Assembly (NCBI RefSeq): GCF_000430545.1
Contig: NZ_KE387163.1
Span: 712,439-776,438 of the forward strand
DNA: 64,000 nt
Reading direction: 5' to 3'
Source of the DNA: Tenacibaculum ovolyticum DSM 18103
Lineage (GTDB): Bacteria > Bacteroidota > Bacteroidia > Flavobacteriales > Flavobacteriaceae
Below the pieces are notes generated by a model. It was not told the DNA's origin. It did no database searches and saw nothing but the letters and a program-made list of their open reading frames with translations. Position numbers and translations under genes: made by a program. Shown piece after piece: positions 6,025 through 42,525 of this stretch. The stretch's first letter is position 1, and each line of letters opens with the position of its first letter.

Positions 6025-6228
6025 ATGTTAAAAAAAATTGGTGATTTAGGAAAAGCCTTAGACAAAACTGAACAAAAGGCTATTAATGGTGGAACTTTAA
6101 ATGATTTTGCTGCAAAATGTTGCCATACTGTCTTTGGATGTACATATGTTAGAACACACGCAACAGCAAGTTTGCTTCAAAATCAAGGATACTTCTGTAA
6201 AGTACTATCTGTTCGAGGAAGCATGTAA
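6025..6228 (+). CDS. Double-glycine-leader peptide precursor, Cys-containing
   Basis: 67 residues. The first 23 (ending EQKAINGG, with Gly-Gly at 22-23) form a short amphipathic leader of the type cut by C39 peptidase-containing ABC transporters during export of bacteriocins and pheromones. The predicted 44-residue core holds four cysteines: a CC pair, FGC and YFC. It has no strong hydrophobic helix, so it is not a typical class IIb bacteriocin. It stands alone: no transporter, modification enzyme or immunity gene is adjacent, and the neighbours are housekeeping or enzyme genes. A terminator follows. A second precursor of the same design lies at 40942. Product and role are not known. Confidence 0.7.
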   Translation: MLKKIGDLGKALDKTEQKAINGGTLNDFAAKCCHTVFGCTYVRTHATASLLQNQGYFCKVLSVRGSM

Positions 6229-8159: not shown

Positions 8160-11100
8160 ATGTTTTTTAAGAAATTTTCCTTTTTTCTATTTTTTTCCCT
8201 TATTTTAATTACTCCCCTTGCGGCTCAACAAAATGACCCTGCCACTTGTATCAGTTTAAAACGCCCTGAGGCTCCAACGTTACAAGAATTTAATCAACAA
8301 AGAAAATCTTTATCAAAAAATACTGTTGCATTAAGAGCAGCCGGTACAACTGCCATAGTACAAAGTGTCCATAATACGATTGCTAAATGGGAGTCGGGTT
8401 CTTATTATCGTTATGATATTGGTACAACCCCAGGTGATAACAATATAAATAGAGGTAGTTTATTAGGTGTTAATGCTAAAAATACACGAGGACATTCTTA
8501 TGAAGAACTAAGAAGATCTGCAATAATAGAAGGTACACCTAATTTTAATTTAGGAGACACTTTTTATATTAATCTATACAATTTTAGTGGTGATACCAAT
8601 CCTTGGGTTTCACAACCAATGTCTTTTAACGTAGAAACTTTAGGGGCTGCTGCCAATGAAGTTATCATTAATATTGAAATGGGATATGGTGTGAATGGTT
8701 TAGGCCCATTTGCTACTTGGCAAAGAGATAAAATGCAAGCTTTTTACAGTAGAGTTAATCCTATTATAAAAGAAGTATATGGTGCACCATCTCGAAATCA
8801 TATTGTTAACATTGTAAACGATGGACTTGCTGTTGGGACTAATACCTATTATAATGGTCCAAATCAAATAAGTACAACCTATAGTGAAAATAATGGCGAT
8901 TTATCGCAACCTCGTTTAATGATTCATGAATTGTTACATGGCTATAGAGATAATGTTGTTATAAGTAGCGATGATGAATGGCATTACACCCCTGTGCTTA
9001 GTGGATTTGAAGAAGGCATGGCTGAAGCTGTTGCTCTTATTGTTATGGATATTTTTATTGAAAGATACCCTAATTTTTTTAATGCTGATGAATTTAAAGT
9101 TCATTGGGGACACTCTCGAGGAATGCCTTTTGATTGGGATTACGATTTTCAAAATCACGAACAATTAACCACAACCGATTTCTTTTCAAGTGACATTGGT
9201 ACAGGTGCCCATTGGGAAAGGTATGGAGCAGCTCAAACTGCTATGCAAAAAATATATATTGAAGACAAAGACGTCTTTAAAAAATTTAATGCAGAATATT
9301 ACAGAAGATTAACTGCTGACTACACATTATTACCTACCAGAAATTTAGTAATAAATATTTTTGAAACTATTTTACCTGAAGTTGAAAGAACGCCAATAAC
9401 AGATTGGATAAATAAACAACGTGTTTTAGACTGTAAAGTAGTACCTGGTAAAAAAGTACACTTATTAACTTTTCAAAAGGCAGATCAAGGGAGGATTCAA
9501 ACAACTGATAATAGATTACACATATATGATACCCAAAATAATGTAAATGGTAGTGAATGGTCTTGGAACATTATTAAACCACGCATTGATGCCAACAATG
9601 ACCCGTCTGAAAGATGGTATGTTCAAAGTAATAATATTAATGGTCAGTTACAAATTTATAATTACGACGGCACACTACATCAGCCACCTATAGCTATAAA
9701 AAATGATAAAGCTGCTAGAAAACAAGGTGTTCCCGCTTATTTAGGGCCATATCAAGGGCCAAATGTTTATGAATACAATGGTACTTTTACAGCTAACGAT
9801 GGTAAAGGCATAGGGCCGCAACCTGGTGGAGGAAAACGACCTATAGGTATTGAAAATCATAATTTTACAGCAACAAACACCCCTAACAGAACTCATGGAG
9901 ATTTATTTAATGCTAACAATCAACCAGATCCTGCTACTCAACTTATAAGCGGCTTAGAAGATTTCGGTTTATATAGATATGATATTACTTTTGAAGGAGG
10001 TAATTATGCAGGCACTTACTATAGATTACACGGTACAGACCTTGTTGGAAAAGATGGACTTATTGGTGGTATAAAATCAGAAGATGACACCAATCAAATT
10101 AAAGGAAAACTAATTATTGAGCATGAAAATTTTGGTGAAGAACCTGAAATAATTATAGATAACGGAGCATTTATAAAAGATCGTTTATGGACTAGTATTC
10201 CTGCTACATCTCAAAGACAAGGAGGAAGAACAGATAGAAGGTATTCTGAAAAAGGTAAAGTACATGCCATATATATTAGTGAAGATTGTACACAACAAAA
10301 AATTGATTTCAGAAACATTACCTATGGTGATGGTTTAGCAGGAAGTCAGTTATTTTTATTTACCGTAGAAAATTTTCAAGATATAGAGTACAAAACACTT
10401 CCTGAAATAACGGTATGTAAAGACGATGATTTCACGTTAAATGTTACAAATAACTTTGAAGATATACTTGATGGTGATACCAGAATATCCTACCAGTGGG
10501 TAAACCCAATGGGTACAGAAATAGCTACTACAAAATCACATGTATTTACTAATGCTCAAAAAGCTGATGAAGGTATTTATACCCTAAAAATTGATTTCTT
10601 TGGATGTGAAATAATTAAAACCACAAACATAATTGTAACAGACGATACATTTACTGTTACAACGCCAACAACCCTAGAGCTATGTGAAAGTACTACTTTA
10701 AATATAGCCGCTAATGATATTCCTGGAGCTACTTACGCTTGGACAGGGCCAAATTCATTTACAGCAACAACTAAAGACATAGAAATATTAAATACTCCGT
10801 TAGCTGCGGCAGGAGATTATATTGTTTCAGCAACAATAGTAAACTGTTCTGGTATTAATGAAACTTTAACTAGCACAACAACTGTAACTGTAAATTCAAC
10901 TGTAACTCCAACATTTACTTTTACAACTACTTATTGTTTAGGAGCAACAGCAGATATACTACCTACAACATCTGATAATGGAATTACGGGTACTTGGAAT
11001 ACAACAACTATTGACACAAACATAACTGGAACTACAAATTATATATTTACACCCGATAACTCAAATCAATGTGGAGAAGCAGTAACTATTCCAGTAACTA

Positions 11101-13820
11101 TTAATACAAATAGTAATATCACCCCTACATTTACTTTTACGACTACTTATTGTGAAGGAGCAACTGCAAATGTATTACCTACAATATCTGATAATGGAAT
11201 TACGGGTACCTGGAACACAACAACTGTTGATACAAACATAACTGGAGCTACAAATTATATATTTACTCCAAATAACCCCAATCAATGCGGTGAGATAGTA
11301 ACCATTCCTATAACAATTAATACAACAGTAATACCTGTATTTAGTTTTTCAACTACCTATTGTGAAGGTGCGACTGCAAATACATTACCTACAACATCTG
11401 ATAATGGAATTACAGGTACCTGGAATACAACAACTATTGACACAAACATAATTGGTACTACAAATTATATATTTACCCCAAATACTCCCACTCAGTGTGG
11501 AGAAGCAGTAACTATATCTGTAACGATTAATGCAACGATAACACCAACATTTAGTTTTTTAACTACCTATTGTGAAGGTGCGACTGCAAATGCATTACCT
11601 ACAACATCTGATAATAGAATTACAGGTACTTGGAATATAGCAACTATTGATACAAGCATAATTGGAGCTACAAATTATGTATTTACTCCAAATGACGCCA
11701 ATCAGTGTGGAGAAGCAGTAACTATATCTGTAACGATTAATGCAACGACAACACCAACATTTACTTTTACAACTACCTATTGTGAAGGTGCAACTACAAC
11801 TGCATTACCAACGACATCTGATAATGGAATTACGGGTACTTGGAATACAACAACTATTGACACAAACATAATTGGAGCTACAAATTATATATTTACACCA
11901 AATGACGCCAATCAGTGTGGAGCACTTACAACCATTTCAGTAACTGTTAATGCAACAGAAACACCAACATTTAGTTTTTTAACTACCTATTGTGAAGGTG
12001 CCACTGCAAATGTATTACCTACAATATCTGACAATGGAATTACAGGTACATGGAATATAGCAACAATTGATACAAGTATAACTGGAGTTACAAATTATGT
12101 ATTTACTCCAAATAACTCCAATCAGTGTGGAGCACTTACAACCATTTCAGTAACAATTAATGCAACAGTAGTACCAACATTTAGTTTTTTAACTAGCTAT
12201 TGTGAAGGTGCTACTGCAAATGCATTACCTACAACATCTGATAATGGAATTACGGGTACTTGGAATACAACATCTATTGACACAAATATAACTGGAGCTA
12301 CAAATTATGTATTTACTCCAAATAACCCCAATCAATGTGGAGAAGCAGTAACTATATCTGTAACGATTAATGCAACGATAACACCAACATTTAGTTTTTT
12401 AACTACCTATTGTGAAGGTGCTACTGCAAATGCATTACCAACAATATCTGATAATGGAATTACAGGTACTTGGAATACAACATCTATTGACACAAATATA
12501 ACTGGAGCTACGAATTATGTATTTACTCCAAATGACGCCAATCAGTGTGGAGCACTTACAACCATTTCAGTAACTGTTAATGCAACAGAAACACCAACAT
12601 TTAGTTTTTTAACTACCTATTGTGAAGGTGCCACTGCAAATGTATTACCTACAATATCTGATAATGGAATTACAGGTACTTGGAATACAACAACTATTGA
12701 TACTAATATAATTGGAACTACAAATTATACTTTTACACCTAGTGTAGTAAATCAATGCGGGGAAGTGTTAATTATTTCTGTAAAAACAAATCAAAATTCT
12801 TTTACACTAGCCTCTGTGCCCCCTATAACTATTTGTGAAACACAAACACTAAACATAAGTGCCGAAAGTATTACCGGAGCAACTTATAGTTGGACAGGAC
12901 CAAACGGGTTTACAGCAATTACAAAAGATATTCAAATACCTAATATAACGACTAATGCAAGCGGTAATTATACTGTTTCTGTTACTAAAACAAATTGCTT
13001 AGGTATTATCGAAACTAAAAAAGTTATAGCAACTGTTACTGTAAACGAAAACACATTCACCATTAACCAAAACCCTACTCCTATTGAGATTTGCGAAACA
13101 GAATTGTTATTTATTAGCACCGATCTTATTACTGGAGCAGATTATAATTGGTCAGGTCCAAATGGTTTTACTGCAAATACTAGAGAAATTAACATACCTA
13201 ATATTTCTATAACTAATGCAGGTAACTATACCGTTTCTGTGAACGCTATTAACTGTACAGGTATCTTAGAAACCAAAACAAGTACAACAAACGTTATTGT
13301 AAACGAAAGTTTTAAAGTAGCAACACCTACTACATTAATTACGTGTTTTACCAAAGAAATAGCTATTGATATTAATGATATTATTGGGGCAACATATAGT
13401 TGGTCAGGACCAAATGGTTTTACTGCTAATACTAAAGATATGCTAATATCAAACGCTACTCTTGCAATGGAAGGTGATTACACTATTTCGGTAACTGCTC
13501 CTAACTGTATGGGAGCTATGATTACAAAAACGAGTACAACAAAAGTAACCGTTAATGTTTGTGCAAAAATACCATCATATTTCACACCAAACGAAGATGG
13601 AAAAAATGATACTTGGGAAATAGATAGCGCATTAATTCCTTTTTCTTTCATTAATATATATGACAGATATGGGAAATTAATTAACAAACTTACCCCTCAA
13701 AATAATAATTGGAATGGTTATTATAATGGTCAAAAAATGCCTTCTACTGATTATTGGTACCTAATAGAGTATGTTAACCAAAAACAAGATACGGGTAACT
13801 TTAGTTTGTTGAGAAAATAA
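8160..13820 (+). CDS. Giant T9SS cargo: zincin-like N-domain, nine 70-residue tandem repeats, type B sorting domain
   Basis: 1886 residues. A signal peptide (to about LAAQQ, 24) is followed by a module with HELLHGY at 256-262 and EEGMAEA at 284-290. This looks like a gluzincin HExxH site with the downstream Glu ligand, so a zinc peptidase activity is likely but unproven. A beta-rich carbohydrate-binding-like region continues to about 750. An Ig-like unit (ATYAWTGPNSFTATTKD) comes next, then nine near-identical 70-residue repeats (916-1547) with the core YCEGATAN..PT.SDNGITGTW and a second Cys in NQCGE, and three more Ig-like units. The last ~85 residues (SYFTPNEDGKNDTWEI ... IYDRYGKLI ... DYWYLIEY) are the CHU_C/type B T9SS sorting domain, which points to export and probable attachment at the cell surface. 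It is monocistronic, with its own terminator. The repeats invite length variation. Confidence 0.93.
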   Translation: MFFKKFSFFLFFSLILITPLAAQQNDPATCISLKRPEAPTLQEFNQQRKSLSKNTVALRAAGTTAIVQSVHNTIAKWESGSYYRYDIGTTPGDNNINRGSLLGVNAKNTRGHSYEELRRSAIIEGTPNFNLGDTFYINLYNFSGDTNPWVSQPMSFNVETLGAAANEVIINIEMGYGVNGLGPFATWQRDKMQAFYSRVNPIIKEVYGAPSRNHIVNIVNDGLAVGTNTYYNGPNQISTTYSENNGDLSQPRLMIHELLHGYRDNVVISSDDEWHYTPVLSGFEEGMAEAVALIVMDIFIERYPNFFNADEFKVHWGHSRGMPFDWDYDFQNHEQLTTTDFFSSDIGTGAHWERYGAAQTAMQKIYIEDKDVFKKFNAEYYRRLTADYTLLPTRNLVINIFETILPEVERTPITDWINKQRVLDCKVVPGKKVHLLTFQKADQGRIQTTDNRLHIYDTQNNVNGSEWSWNIIKPRIDANNDPSERWYVQSNNINGQLQIYNYDGTLHQPPIAIKNDKAARKQGVPAYLGPYQGPNVYEYNGTFTANDGKGIGPQPGGGKRPIGIENHNFTATNTPNRTHGDLFNANNQPDPATQLISGLEDFGLYRYDITFEGGNYAGTYYRLHGTDLVGKDGLIGGIKSEDDTNQIKGKLIIEHENFGEEPEIIIDNGAFIKDRLWTSIPATSQRQGGRTDRRYSEKGKVHAIYISEDCTQQKIDFRNITYGDGLAGSQLFLFTVENFQDIEYKTLPEITVCKDDDFTLNVTNNFEDILDGDTRISYQWVNPMGTEIATTKSHVFTNAQKADEGIYTLKIDFFGCEIIKTTNIIVTDDTFTVTTPTTLELCESTTLNIAANDIPGATYAWTGPNSFTATTKDIEILNTPLAAAGDYIVSATIVNCSGINETLTSTTTVTVNSTVTPTFTFTTTYCLGATADILPTTSDNGITGTWNTTTIDTNITGTTNYIFTPDNSNQCGEAVTIPVTINTNSNITPTFTFTTTYCEGATANVLPTISDNGITGTWNTTTVDTNITGATNYIFTPNNPNQCGEIVTIPITINTTVIPVFSFSTTYCEGATANTLPTTSDNGITGTWNTTTIDTNIIGTTNYIFTPNTPTQCGEAVTISVTINATITPTFSFLTTYCEGATANALPTTSDNRITGTWNIATIDTSIIGATNYVFTPNDANQCGEAVTISVTINATTTPTFTFTTTYCEGATTTALPTTSDNGITGTWNTTTIDTNIIGATNYIFTPNDANQCGALTTISVTVNATETPTFSFLTTYCEGATANVLPTISDNGITGTWNIATIDTSITGVTNYVFTPNNSNQCGALTTISVTINATVVPTFSFLTSYCEGATANALPTTSDNGITGTWNTTSIDTNITGATNYVFTPNNPNQCGEAVTISVTINATITPTFSFLTTYCEGATANALPTISDNGITGTWNTTSIDTNITGATNYVFTPNDANQCGALTTISVTVNATETPTFSFLTTYCEGATANVLPTISDNGITGTWNTTTIDTNIIGTTNYTFTPSVVNQCGEVLIISVKTNQNSFTLASVPPITICETQTLNISAESITGATYSWTGPNGFTAITKDIQIPNITTNASGNYTVSVTKTNCLGIIETKKVIATVTVNENTFTINQNPTPIEICETELLFISTDLITGADYNWSGPNGFTANTREINIPNISITNAGNYTVSVNAINCTGILETKTSTTNVIVNESFKVATPTTLITCFTKEIAIDINDIIGATYSWSGPNGFTANTKDMLISNATLAMEGDYTISVTAPNCMGAMITKTSTTKVTVNVCAKIPSYFTPNEDGKNDTWEIDSALIPFSFINIYDRYGKLINKLTPQNNNWNGYYNGQKMPSTDYWYLIEYVNQKQDTGNFSLLRK
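10905..12800 (+). repeat. Nine tandem 210-bp coding repeats inside the giant T9SS gene
   Basis: Units of about 210 bp (the first two slightly longer) begin at each 'cca aca ttt' of the PTFxF segment. Similarity is high at DNA level: 11898-12031 is identical to 12528-12661 (134 bases, offset exactly 630), and 11496-11581 is identical to 12336-12421 (offset 840). Each unit encodes two cysteines about 45 residues apart, likely a disulfide in an Ig/PKD-like beta domain. Confidence 0.95.
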
Positions 13821-38368: not shown

Positions 38369-38436
38369 TTCTATTAAATAGAGGTCATTATAAGTTTTAA
38401 GTAATTACTTATTTCTCATATATGTAAAAATAAAAA

Positions 38437-38741
38437 AGTAGACCAGTAAGCTGGATTCTGTTTCTTATAAATAAGACTCTTATCATTTATCTAGTTTTAC
38501 AATTACTTGTAAAATCAATCTGCCTACCCCTTAGAATCGCGCGAGTAGCGCTCGAGCTCTAATGTACATGACATTGCACCGTATAGAGTTTACCTGGTTT
38601 CACTACAGCATTACCTGTACATACTTTCTGCTGCACTTGTCCTCGGTTTGCACCGGACGGTTGTTATCCGCTATACTACTCTTTGGTGTCCAGACTTTCC
38701 TACTTATACTAAATATAAGTCGATAAGATAGGTCTACTTAT
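38437..38741 (-). ncRNA. rnpB: RNase P RNA (class A)
   Basis: Catalytic RNA that trims tRNA 5' leaders. On the minus strand the 5' end reads TAAGTAGACC and pairs with GGTCTACTT at the 3' end (helix P1). Internal landmarks: AGGAAAGTCTGGACACC early, GGTGCAAACCGAGGACAAG and GCAGCAGAAAGTA in the centre, and the CAGAATCCAGCTTACTGG block at the 3' end, followed by a T6 tract. Length about 305 nt, normal for class A. A terminator-type hairpin at 38770-38799 isolates it from upstream transcription. Confidence 0.95.
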
Positions 38742-40206: not shown

Positions 40207-40776
40207 TTATGCTTGTCCTACCACCACTTTTGGATGACGAATAATTTTATCTCCTAACTTATATCCTTTTTCTACACAATCAACAACCTTTCCTTTTAAA
40301 TCATCAGAAGGTGCAGGTATTTGTGTAATTGCTTGGTGTACTTCTGCATCAAAAACATCACCTGACTTTACCTCTATAGCTGTTAATCCCTTTTGCTCTA
40401 AAGTAGATACCATTTTTTGATAAATTAATAATACTCCTTTACGTAACTCTTCAGCCTCCTTATCATCTTCAATATGTGATAAAGCTCTTTCGAAATCATC
40501 TAAAACTGGCAGTAAAACTGTCATTACTTCCTGTCCTGCTGTTTTAAAAAGCTCCATACGCTCTTTAGACGTACGTTTTTTATAGTTTTCAAACTCAGCA
40601 AATAAACGTAAATACTTATCTTTTTCTGCTTGAAGTAACTCTTCAGTTGTAGGTACTACTTTCTCTTCAACCCCCTCAACCTCTTGTGCTTTCTCTGCTT
40701 CTTGAGTTTCTTCTACTTGCGCATTATCAATTGCGTCTTTTAACTCGTCTTCTTTTGTATATTGATCTTTACTCAT
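40207..40776 (-). CDS. grpE: Nucleotide exchange factor GrpE
   Basis: 189 residues from MSKDQYTKED; an upstream in-frame ATG adds ten residues (MLKNLKRLFT) that are basic, unlike the normal acidic N-terminus, so I prefer the internal start. A very acidic region with QEAEKAQEVEGVEEKV is followed by the long dimer helix (AEFENYKKRTSKERMEL), the four-helix bundle and the beta domain with GDVFDAEVHQAI and DKIIRHPKVVVGQ. Releases ADP from DnaK. Forms an operon with dnaJ. A TTGACA-N17-TATTAT arrangement lies just upstream. Confidence 0.95.
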   Translation of the reverse strand: MSKDQYTKEDELKDAIDNAQVEETQEAEKAQEVEGVEEKVVPTTEELLQAEKDKYLRLFAEFENYKKRTSKERMELFKTAGQEVMTVLLPVLDDFERALSHIEDDKEAEELRKGVLLIYQKMVSTLEQKGLTAIEVKSGDVFDAEVHQAITQIPAPSDDLKGKVVDCVEKGYKLGDKIIRHPKVVVGQA

Positions 40777-40888
40777 TGTAAATAGTCTCTTTAAATTCTT
40801 CAGCATACTTTTATCAATAATATTGCCAATAAAAAAATTGTGTCAACTTGACATTAATTAATTCATCTCTTTTTTTAATCGTGTATAA

Positions 40889-40906
40889 TTCCTATATTTA
40901 TAGGAA
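40889..40906. other. Short perfect palindrome upstream of the second peptide gene
   Basis: TTCCTATA-TT-TATAGGAA, 8-bp arms, 36 bp before the start of the double-glycine peptide gene. Could be an operator or a hairpin in the leader; no T-tract of terminator type on the + side. Confidence 0.4.
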
Positions 40907-40941
40907 ATAAATTTAATTAACATTTAAGTCCCTCATTAATT

Positions 40942-41139
40942 ATGAAAAATAACTTATTAAGTATTACTGGCGCAACAATTTTAACTAGACAAGAACAAAA
41001 AAATCTAACTGGAGGTATCTCTTTAGTAGAAGATGCTAGCAAATGTGGTTGTGATTGCGCAGGACGTGTTACAGGTCCTTTCTATTGTCATAAGATTATT
41101 GCTTGTCCACAAGTATATACTTGTGACCAAGAAATGTAA
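40942..41139 (+). CDS. Double-glycine-leader peptide precursor, six-cysteine core
   Basis: 65 residues. Leader of 25 residues ending RQEQKNLTGG, with the same EQK-x-x-x-GG ending as the peptide at 6025. The 40-residue core has six cysteines (KCGCDCAG, FYCHK, IACPQ, YTCDQ), giving up to three disulfides or modification sites. It sits alone between grpE and murA with its own hairpin terminator; no C39-type transporter, radical SAM, lanthipeptide or immunity gene is within the window. Possible roles: secreted bacteriocin-like peptide, signalling peptide or adhesin-like microprotein. The two precursors share only the leader design, not the core. Confidence 0.7.
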   Translation: MKNNLLSITGATILTRQEQKNLTGGISLVEDASKCGCDCAGRVTGPFYCHKIIACPQVYTCDQEM

Positions 41140-41154
41140 TACTATATCTTAAAA

Positions 41155-41191
41155 GAAAAACCAGTAACTTATAAAAGTTGCTGGTTTTTTT
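41155..41191 (+). terminator. Terminator of the second peptide gene
   Basis: Stem CCAGTAACTT / AAGTTGCTGG (one G-U pair) with a 4-base loop, A5 before and T7 after. May also serve convergent murA. Confidence 0.88.
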
Positions 41192-41211
41192 ATTTAAATT
41201 AACTTCTTAAA

Positions 41212-42525
41212 TTAATCTTCTATTCTTTCGATCTTTGCTCCAATAGATTTTAATCTAGCTTCAATATCTTCGTAACCTCTATCTATTTGCTCAATATTAT
41301 TAATAATACTAGTACCTTTTGCCGATAGGGCTGCTATTAATAATGAAATTCCAGCACGAATATCTGGCGAAGTCATTTTTGTAGCTTTTAACATCGATTG
41401 AAAATCATGCCCTATTACAGTTGCTCTATGCGGATCACATAAAATTACTTTAGCACCCATATCTATTAATTTATCAACAAAAAACAAACGGCTTTCAAAC
41501 ATTTTTTGATGAATTAAGACTGTTCCTTTTGCTTGTGTTGCTATTACCAATACAATACTTAATAAATCGGGAGTAAAACCAGGCCAAGGCGCATCGGCTA
41601 CTGTTAAAATAGATCCATCGATGTAGTTTTGAATTTCATAACTATCTTGTTCAGGAATAAAAATATCATCACCTATTTTTTCTAATTGGATTCCTAGTTT
41701 ACGAAATACATTTGGTATTTGTCCTAAATTTTTCCAACTAACATCTTTAATTGTTAATTCAGATCGTGTCATTGCTGCCATACCAATCCAACTACCAATT
41801 TCTATCATATCAGGTAATACTCTGTGTTCACATCCACCTAAAGAAGTTACTCCTTCAATAGTTAGTAGATTTGAACCTACTCCTGATATTTTTGCCCCCA
41901 TAGAATTCAACATTTTTGATAATTGTTGAATGTAAGGCTCACAAGCTGCATTATATATAGTTGTTGTTCCTTTTGCTAAAACTGCTGCCATTAAAATGTT
42001 AGCCGTACCTGTTACTGAAGCTTCGTCTAGTAACATATCTGTACCAACTAAACCTGTTTCAGTTTCAACTCCGTAAAAATACTCTTCTTTATTGTAGCGA
42101 AATTTTGCACCTAAATTAATAAATCCTTCAAAATGGGTATCTAAGCGACGACGTCCTATTTTATCACCTCCTGGTCTTGGAATATATCCTTTACCAAAAC
42201 GTGCTAATAAAGGACCAACTATCATTATTGAACCTCTTAATGAACTTCCATCTCTTTTAAAATCTGCCGATTCTAAATATTTTAAGTTAATAGCATCTGC
42301 TTGAAAACTATAAGAGTTTTTTCCTAATTTTTCAATTTTAACACCTAGTTCTCCTAAAATAAAAATAAGCTTATTTACGTCAATAATATCAGGAATATTA
42401 TTTATCGTTACTTTTTCTGCTGTTAACAATACAGCACATATAATTTGTAACGCTTCATTTTTTGCTCCTTGAGGTGTAATTACTCCGTTAAGCTTGTGAC
42501 CTCCTTCAATTTTAAATGATGCCAT
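41212..42525 (-). CDS. murA: UDP-N-acetylglucosamine 1-carboxyvinyltransferase, Asp-type
   Basis: 437 residues. First committed step of peptidoglycan synthesis: transfers enolpyruvate from PEP to UDP-GlcNAc. Inside-out alpha/beta barrel with KNEALQIICA at 22-31 and RGSIMIVGPLLARFGKG near 97-113. The residue that is Cys115 in E. coli is Asp here (D121, in PRPGGDKIGRRRLDTH). Asp at this position removes the target of fosfomycin in characterised enzymes. Its start is directly followed upstream by the DUF4290 gene, whose stop abuts it, so they form one unit. Confidence 0.96.
   Translation of the reverse strand: MASFKIEGGHKLNGVITPQGAKNEALQIICAVLLTAEKVTINNIPDIIDVNKLIFILGELGVKIEKLGKNSYSFQADAINLKYLESADFKRDGSSLRGSIMIVGPLLARFGKGYIPRPGGDKIGRRRLDTHFEGFINLGAKFRYNKEEYFYGVETETGLVGTDMLLDEASVTGTANILMAAVLAKGTTTIYNAACEPYIQQLSKMLNSMGAKISGVGSNLLTIEGVTSLGGCEHRVLPDMIEIGSWIGMAAMTRSELTIKDVSWKNLGQIPNVFRKLGIQLEKIGDDIFIPEQDSYEIQNYIDGSILTVADAPWPGFTPDLLSIVLVIATQAKGTVLIHQKMFESRLFFVDKLIDMGAKVILCDPHRATVIGHDFQSMLKATKMTSPDIRAGISLLIAALSAKGTSIINNIEQIDRGYEDIEARLKSIGAKIERIED

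Follow-up and report, generated by a model that had tools for sequence, protein, structure and literature searches.

Tenacibaculum ovolyticum DSM 18103 carries, in the stretch of 64,000 nucleotides that we analyzed (the window), a solitary gene for a double-glycine (GG) peptide with a six-cysteine core. This gene has a steady place within each genus that has it, and in another family of this order the same core follows a different leader. We think that the product is probably exported in trans, by machinery encoded elsewhere in the genome, and disulfide bonded, and that it has a conserved extracellular role, most likely as a signal. Peptides with GG leaders that are exported by PCATs are a known kind of system; what sets this one apart is that it is solitary, probably served in trans, and conserved in its core.

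The coordinates of the features are given in the table. The precursor has 65 residues, starts with ATG, and reads MKNNLLSITGATILTRQEQKNLTGG (leader) followed by ISLVEDASKCGCDCAGRVTGPFYCHKIIACPQVYTCDQEM (core). A preliminary description of the window had reported it as the second GG peptide there, at 40942–41139, with a leader ending in EQKNLTGG, six cysteines in a core of 40 residues, a dedicated terminator, and a distance of 35 kb from the first such peptide. The ORF, the leader (25 residues), the cysteine count, the core size, and the coordinates are all as it had them, and the start of the gene is 34.9 kb from the peptide gene at 6025–6228. The terminator at 41154–41191 is strong and is the sole one in 40780–41260, where the mean from shuffles was 0.0. 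No sigma-70-type promoter was found on the + strand of this interval. Leaders of PCAT-exported GG peptides end in GG and have conserved hydrophobic residues at –4 and –12. In our alignment the focal leader has leucine at both of these positions, which agrees with the exporter-linked leaders described below, and we infer that it is cut after the GG.

Features of the window that are discussed in the text
Feature	Position	Strand	Basis or comment
First orphan double-glycine peptide, same leader family	6025..6228	+	Core with a single strong relative among the 146 genus genomes
grpE, divergent neighbor, synteny anchor, outside the peptide system	40207..40806	-	PF01025; synteny
Palindrome TTCCTATA-TT-TATAGGAA	40889..40906	.	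Chance level
AAGTCCCTC box, gene-specific candidate 5′ element	40926..40934	+	7 nt before the start codon
Precursor peptide gene, 65 aa	40942..41139	+	ORF, relatives, dN/dS
Double-glycine leader MKNNLLSITGATILTRQEQKNLTGG, 25 aa	40942..41016	+	Fit to the leader profile of 18 intact ORFs of the same genome
Core, 40 aa, conserved block CGCDCAGRVTGPFYCHKIIACPQVYTC, six retained Cys	41017..41136	+	Cys in 39/39 aligned sequences and seven more
Intrinsic terminator of the peptide gene	41154..41191	+	Terminator search
murA-type enolpyruvyl transferase, convergent neighbor, synteny anchor	41212..42525	-	PF00275; synteny

Comparison of the focal peptide with NCBIfam and Pfam gave only sub-threshold matches, PHROGs gave none at E ≤ 1, and the core is covered by no Pfam, NCBIfam, or PHROG model above its cut-off. 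A sequence profile of the peptide matched one PDB chain at E 0.11, which we take as chance and do not regard as a solved relative. The AlphaFold model of the peptide is poor (mean pLDDT 60.3, pTM 0.35). A literature search with the core motifs CGCDCAG, VTGPFYC, and IACPQVYTC found no paper that contains them, and none was found that joins at least four of the terms VKOR, peptidase C39, bacteriocin, Bacteroidetes, and disulfide. As judged by title and start of abstract among the matches listed, the focal peptide is the subject of no paper found.

Relatives of the focal peptide were present at E < 1e-15 in 27 of the 146 genomes of our genus sample, which is the Tenacibaculum group. At E ≤ 1 there were matches in 38 of these genomes, 11 of which had weak matches only. 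A scan of named genomes returned six loci, which are in Tenacibaculum aiptasiae, an uncultured Tenacibaculum, a Tenacibaculum MAG, Flavobacterium sp. 9AF, Kordia zhangzhouensis, and a Kordia MAG. Outside of the genus, a search with the profile of the peptide family gave strong matches in 3 of 397 genomes searched in the family sample and in 9 of 395 searched in the phylum sample. Six of these nine come from another family of the same order (here called f2; genus g238), and judging from the leader this genus is probably Chryseobacterium. Because in f2 the same core is preceded by a leader of a different type (e.g. MKNFLKNATKLKKADLKNITGG), the core is constant independently of the leader.

All six cysteines are present in each of the 39 sequences that we aligned, and in 691 of 741 pairs from this alignment the core is more identical than the leader. 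Because 30 of the 39 rows had been chosen with a pattern that requires the first three cysteines and GP, we also read seven relatives outside of the alignment (the second copies of G028 and G802, G790, G551, one G323 copy, and both from G496), two of which had been missed by the pattern; all seven have six cysteines. From 78 pairs within the genus with moderate synonymous change, dN/dS was 0.147 (core) and 0.367 (leader), and purifying selection is stronger on the core than on the leader. The relatives in 27 of 146 genomes, the cysteines kept in 39 of 39 sequences, and these dN/dS values together indicate that the ORF is a genuine gene and not a chance ORF. The main point, which the preliminary description had missed, is that the focal core is not among the fast-changing ones.

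The position of the gene was also compared between genomes. The divergent grpE is 0.7–2.3 kb from the peptide in 26 of the 27 carriers in the genus; in the remaining one (G067) the peptide is beside murA and grpE is on another contig. On the other side is a PF00275 gene, which we take to be murA. It lies within 1.9 kb in 20 of 26 carriers, sometimes with one gene or a second copy of the peptide in between. Other genes occupy this position in G131, G111, G140, and G002, and the stretch is too short to judge this side in G129 and G144. The surroundings in other genera are different ones: the peptide is downstream of RNase Y and an MFS gene in f2, upstream of a dihydrolipoamide-dehydrogenase-like gene in Flavobacterium, and present as a pair after a MATE gene in Kordia. 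No receptor or regulator gene linked to the peptide was found in the genera examined. In G017, which is near G125 on the tree, the gene and its 5′ region are missing between the palindrome on the grpE side and murA. Elsewhere in the window, RNase P RNA of class A (38431–38740, minus strand) is the only RNA family found at gathering scores, and 8160–13820 encodes a protein of 1886 residues with tandem, near-identical repeats around TTYCEGATAN.LPTTSDNGITGTWN.

The sequence AGTCCC occurs within 30 nt of the ATG in 18 of 27 distinct loci of the genus. The expectation from mononucleotide shuffles is 0.025, but these loci share descent and are not independent of one another. AAGTCCC occurs in none of the 85 grpE upstream regions of non-carriers (up to 1.5 kb each). 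An extended 22-mer of the AAGTCCCTC box has one site in its own genome with up to 3 mismatches allowed. None of the other 17 intact leader peptides encoded in the genome has the box at 60 nt or less from its start, and it is absent before the five Kordia and Flavobacterium genes examined. When the 5′ region was folded as RNA together with the first codons of the leader, AAGTCCCTC showed no constant pairing across nine loci. A palindrome noted in the preliminary description is exactly where it was placed, at 40889–40906, but it is not special, since shuffling the sequence upstream of the gene gave a palindrome as good in 85 of 1000 cases, and on these grounds we rule it out as an operator. The best palindromes in the upstream regions of other loci are different ones. 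Another palindrome, TGTCAACTTGACA, is upstream of grpE at 40841–40853 in the window. In 88 of 112 genomes a TGTCA-TGACA element lies upstream of grpE, at a distance of up to 500 nt. Because these include 67 of the 85 non-carriers, this element probably serves as an operator for grpE-dnaJ rather than for the peptide.

The idea of a dispersed precursor family proved largely right. A leader profile matched 18 intact ORFs on seven contigs of the genome (E ≤ 8e-5). This profile was built from 14 leaders, with both window peptides among its rows; because seven of the 18 leaders had themselves been used to build it, the independent finds number 11. We dropped two more matches, one with an internal stop (E 7.7e-4) and one at E 4.2. 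Eight of the 18 ORFs are inside two export loci and 10 are dispersed. By eye, the cores of all 18 are mutually unrelated, which bears out what had been said about the two window peptides, namely that their cores are unrelated even though their leaders agree. The two were also said to have the same leader design. This is so to the extent that both fit one profile, of which both are rows, but the leader of the first peptide has 23 residues versus 25 for the focal peptide, and the two are 30% identical in the alignment. The core of the first peptide has one strong relative among the 146 genus genomes (in G132), and 37 more genomes match this peptide mostly over its leader. In G111, 10 GG-leader peptides with differing Cys-containing cores are found around an HlyD-like gene (L235:187–4991).

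Where the preliminary description expected one export machine, we found two export loci that resemble each other, on contigs 8 and 14, both apart from the focal gene. Each has a gene for a fusion of C39-like, VKOR, and thioredoxin parts (L042:1559–3145 and L043:6973–8592), followed by GG peptides and a C39-ABC exporter. The contig 8 locus also encodes an HlyD-like protein; the exporter gene on contig 14 is truncated by the contig end. Contig 8 starts with a near-copy of the C-terminus of HlyD, as if repeats broke the assembly at these loci (L042, L043). The intact copy of the exporter has ABC membrane and ATPase domains, and there are two strong C39 matches in this genome (G000). Because the two exporters and the two fusions account for all four C39 matches of the genome, there is none in the window. 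The C39-like part of both fusions is without the first 17–20 positions of the model, which suggests that it is inactive, and the fusion may be a disulfide synthase able to recognize GG leaders. The focal leader has 25 residues versus 23 for the exporter-linked leaders, with like residues at –4, –7, and –12. We infer that the focal peptide is exported through these machines.

We asked how the peptide is distributed relative to C39 and VKOR. Across the genus sample, C39 matches occur in 67 and VKOR matches in 43 of 146 genomes. A DnaJ-GrpE tree contained 112 genomes, of which 27 were carriers and 85 were non-carriers (84 at 90% completeness or more, and G061 at 70%); the other 34 are off the tree because they are of low quality or are missing grpE. 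Among tree genomes, in counts that ignore descent, C39 is present in 27/27 carriers versus 32/85 non-carriers and VKOR in 26/27 versus 13/85. All carriers are within one group of 47 genomes (support 99). Inside this group, again ignoring descent, VKOR is present in 26/27 carriers versus 7/20 others (Fisher p 6e-6) and C39 in 27/27 versus 10/20. Seven non-carriers of the carrier clade keep VKOR. In 26 of 26 carriers the VKOR match is within 6 kb of a C39 match, and outside of the genus VKOR was above the cut-off in 12 of 12 genomes, a count made on carriers only. The sole carrier of the genus without VKOR, G111, has an HlyD-like gene that is closely similar by eye, and 10 GG peptides; because this locus is 2.2 kb from a contig end, VKOR may sit in an assembly gap. 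G017, where the focal gene is missing, has no match to C39, VKOR, or the leader peptides. A tree-aware test with six pairs gave on average 3.1 pairs in which VKOR differs the same way as the peptide, 0.0 in which it differs the opposite way, and 2.9 with no difference; the opposite direction appeared once in a few of 200 pairings. The co-occurrence in this test is thus in the same direction and is not significant (median sign-test p 0.25). Together, these data are consistent with a link between the peptide and VKOR but do not prove it.

A sequence of events that would fit these observations is as follows. A peptidase-ABC exporter encoded elsewhere in the genome would recognize the leader through its C39 domain, the precursor would be cut after Gly25, and the core of 40 residues would leave through the exporter and the HlyD-like adaptor. 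The VKOR-thioredoxin protein, encoded beside the exporter, would form up to three disulfide bonds, and its N-terminal C39-like domain may hold the leader. The secreted six-Cys peptide would then act on a conserved partner outside of the cell. Because the core is nearly constant across genera, such a partner is most likely a constant one.

There are precedents for parts of this scheme. Bacteroidetocins are peptide toxins of Bacteroidota with GG leaders, a PCAT and, with Cys-containing peptides, a thiol oxidoreductase, and their authors state that Bacteroides is without general disulfide machinery (PMC6671954). The focal peptide is like them in having a double-glycine leader and a Cys-containing mature part (approximately 42 residues there), and in the C39-ABC transporter and thiol oxidoreductase of the export region. 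It is unlike them in that the leader has 25 residues versus 15–16, the core has six cysteines versus four in bacteroidetocins A and B, and the gene is solitary between grpE and murA, whereas a bacteroidetocin gene is beside an exporter, a TM protein, and mostly an oxidoreductase, as described in that report (PMC6671954). In pneumococcus a leader is sufficient to send a peptide to a PCAT, and ‘orphan’ GG peptides without a linked PCAT are mentioned; unlike for the focal peptide, the host is Gram-positive and, in the passages considered, no VKOR partner is named (PMC7018657). PCATs can also discriminate by leader and refuse foreign ones (PMC7018657), and this calls for caution above all else here, given the 25 residues of the focal leader versus 23 in the exporter-linked ones. 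Another family that comes close is NCBIfam NF047798 (leader_Chryseo, ‘bacteriocin-like protein’), which likewise has a short leader ending in GG. It is a leader model of 18 positions that is silent on the core; one f2 member scored 21.6 of the 23.5 bits needed and the focal peptide scored 10.8 bits.

Many of these features would also suit a bacteriocin that is disulfide bonded, leaves by the same exporter, and is active against related Bacteroidota; immunity would then come from a gene at another site or from variation of the target. This is the main rival reading, which we consider possible but less likely. The 135 and 72 bases between the focal gene and its neighbors leave no room in the window for the cognate immunity gene that class II bacteriocins have next to the peptide. 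When ORFs of 80–90 residues or more were compared, no neighbor was shared between genera, a size limit that a small immunity gene could escape. The core is nearly invariant across families, whereas its sister cores in the same genome look unrelated, and a search of 72,556 plasmid and 50,697 phage records gave no match (E ≤ 0.01) that would point to a mobile element. In favor of a bacteriocin are the patchy presence with loss in G017 and the two copies of the peptide in some genomes, and the GG leader, Cys-rich core, PCAT, and thiol oxidoreductase all resemble bacteroidetocins (PMC6671954). Because the core is nearly invariant, the locus is steady and solitary, and the window is without room for immunity, we prefer a signal; as the peptide has no linked receptor or regulator gene in the genera examined, the basis for this preference is its conservation, together with the missing immunity gene nearby. 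Sequence cannot decide between the two, and within the trans-export explanation we only lean, somewhat tentatively, toward an intercellular signal rather than an arms-race bacteriocin.

Other fates for the cysteines seem far less probable. The CxCxC motif and six retained cysteines could belong to a secreted metal-binding peptide (a metallophore or copper buffer), which we regard as quite improbable because the conservation outside of the cysteines (VTGP, PQVYT) exceeds what metal binding needs, no gene for metal uptake or resistance was seen by eye among the listed neighbors, and the peptide co-occurs with a thiol oxidase. A RiPP in which a radical SAM enzyme modifies the cysteines to thioethers in place of disulfides is, if anything, a still poorer fit. 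NCBIfam TIGR04149 was matched at E ≤ 1 by 10 of 21 family members (best 2.4e-5), and the f2 matches span the leader and extend into the first part of the core; however, two f2 members scored 17.8 and 18.5 bits, below the cut-off of 25, the focal peptide did not match, and by eye no radical SAM gene was seen beside the focal gene or in the two export loci, with the VKOR protein co-occurring instead. SCIFF peptides, which are clostridial and have a radical SAM partner, contain six cysteines in forty-five residues. The focal peptide is like them in having six in about 40, and the SCIFF model is not among the seven NCBIfam families that the 21 members matched.

Returning to a trans-exported, disulfide-bonded peptide that most likely serves as a signal, a bolder version is that it is shared among Flavobacteriales, with a nearly invariant core, a steady and solitary locus in each genus, a leader fitted to the exporter of each lineage, and folding by a VKOR disulfide synthase that binds the leader and is encoded at another site. 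We offer this as speculation that is rather unlikely to hold in full. If it is true, distant genera could perceive the same molecule. So far, GG-leader peptides of this group have been labeled bacteriocin-like at best. The focal peptide stands out among them because two families share its mature part almost unchanged, whereas the sister peptides encoded beside it in one genome differ, and because its gene lies apart from the machine that would have to serve it. Its core is a defined molecule that can be synthesized, and it would allow one to ask whether exported disulfide peptides serve as signals in these bacteria and whether the fusion of a C39-like domain with VKOR links recognition of the leader to the formation of disulfides.
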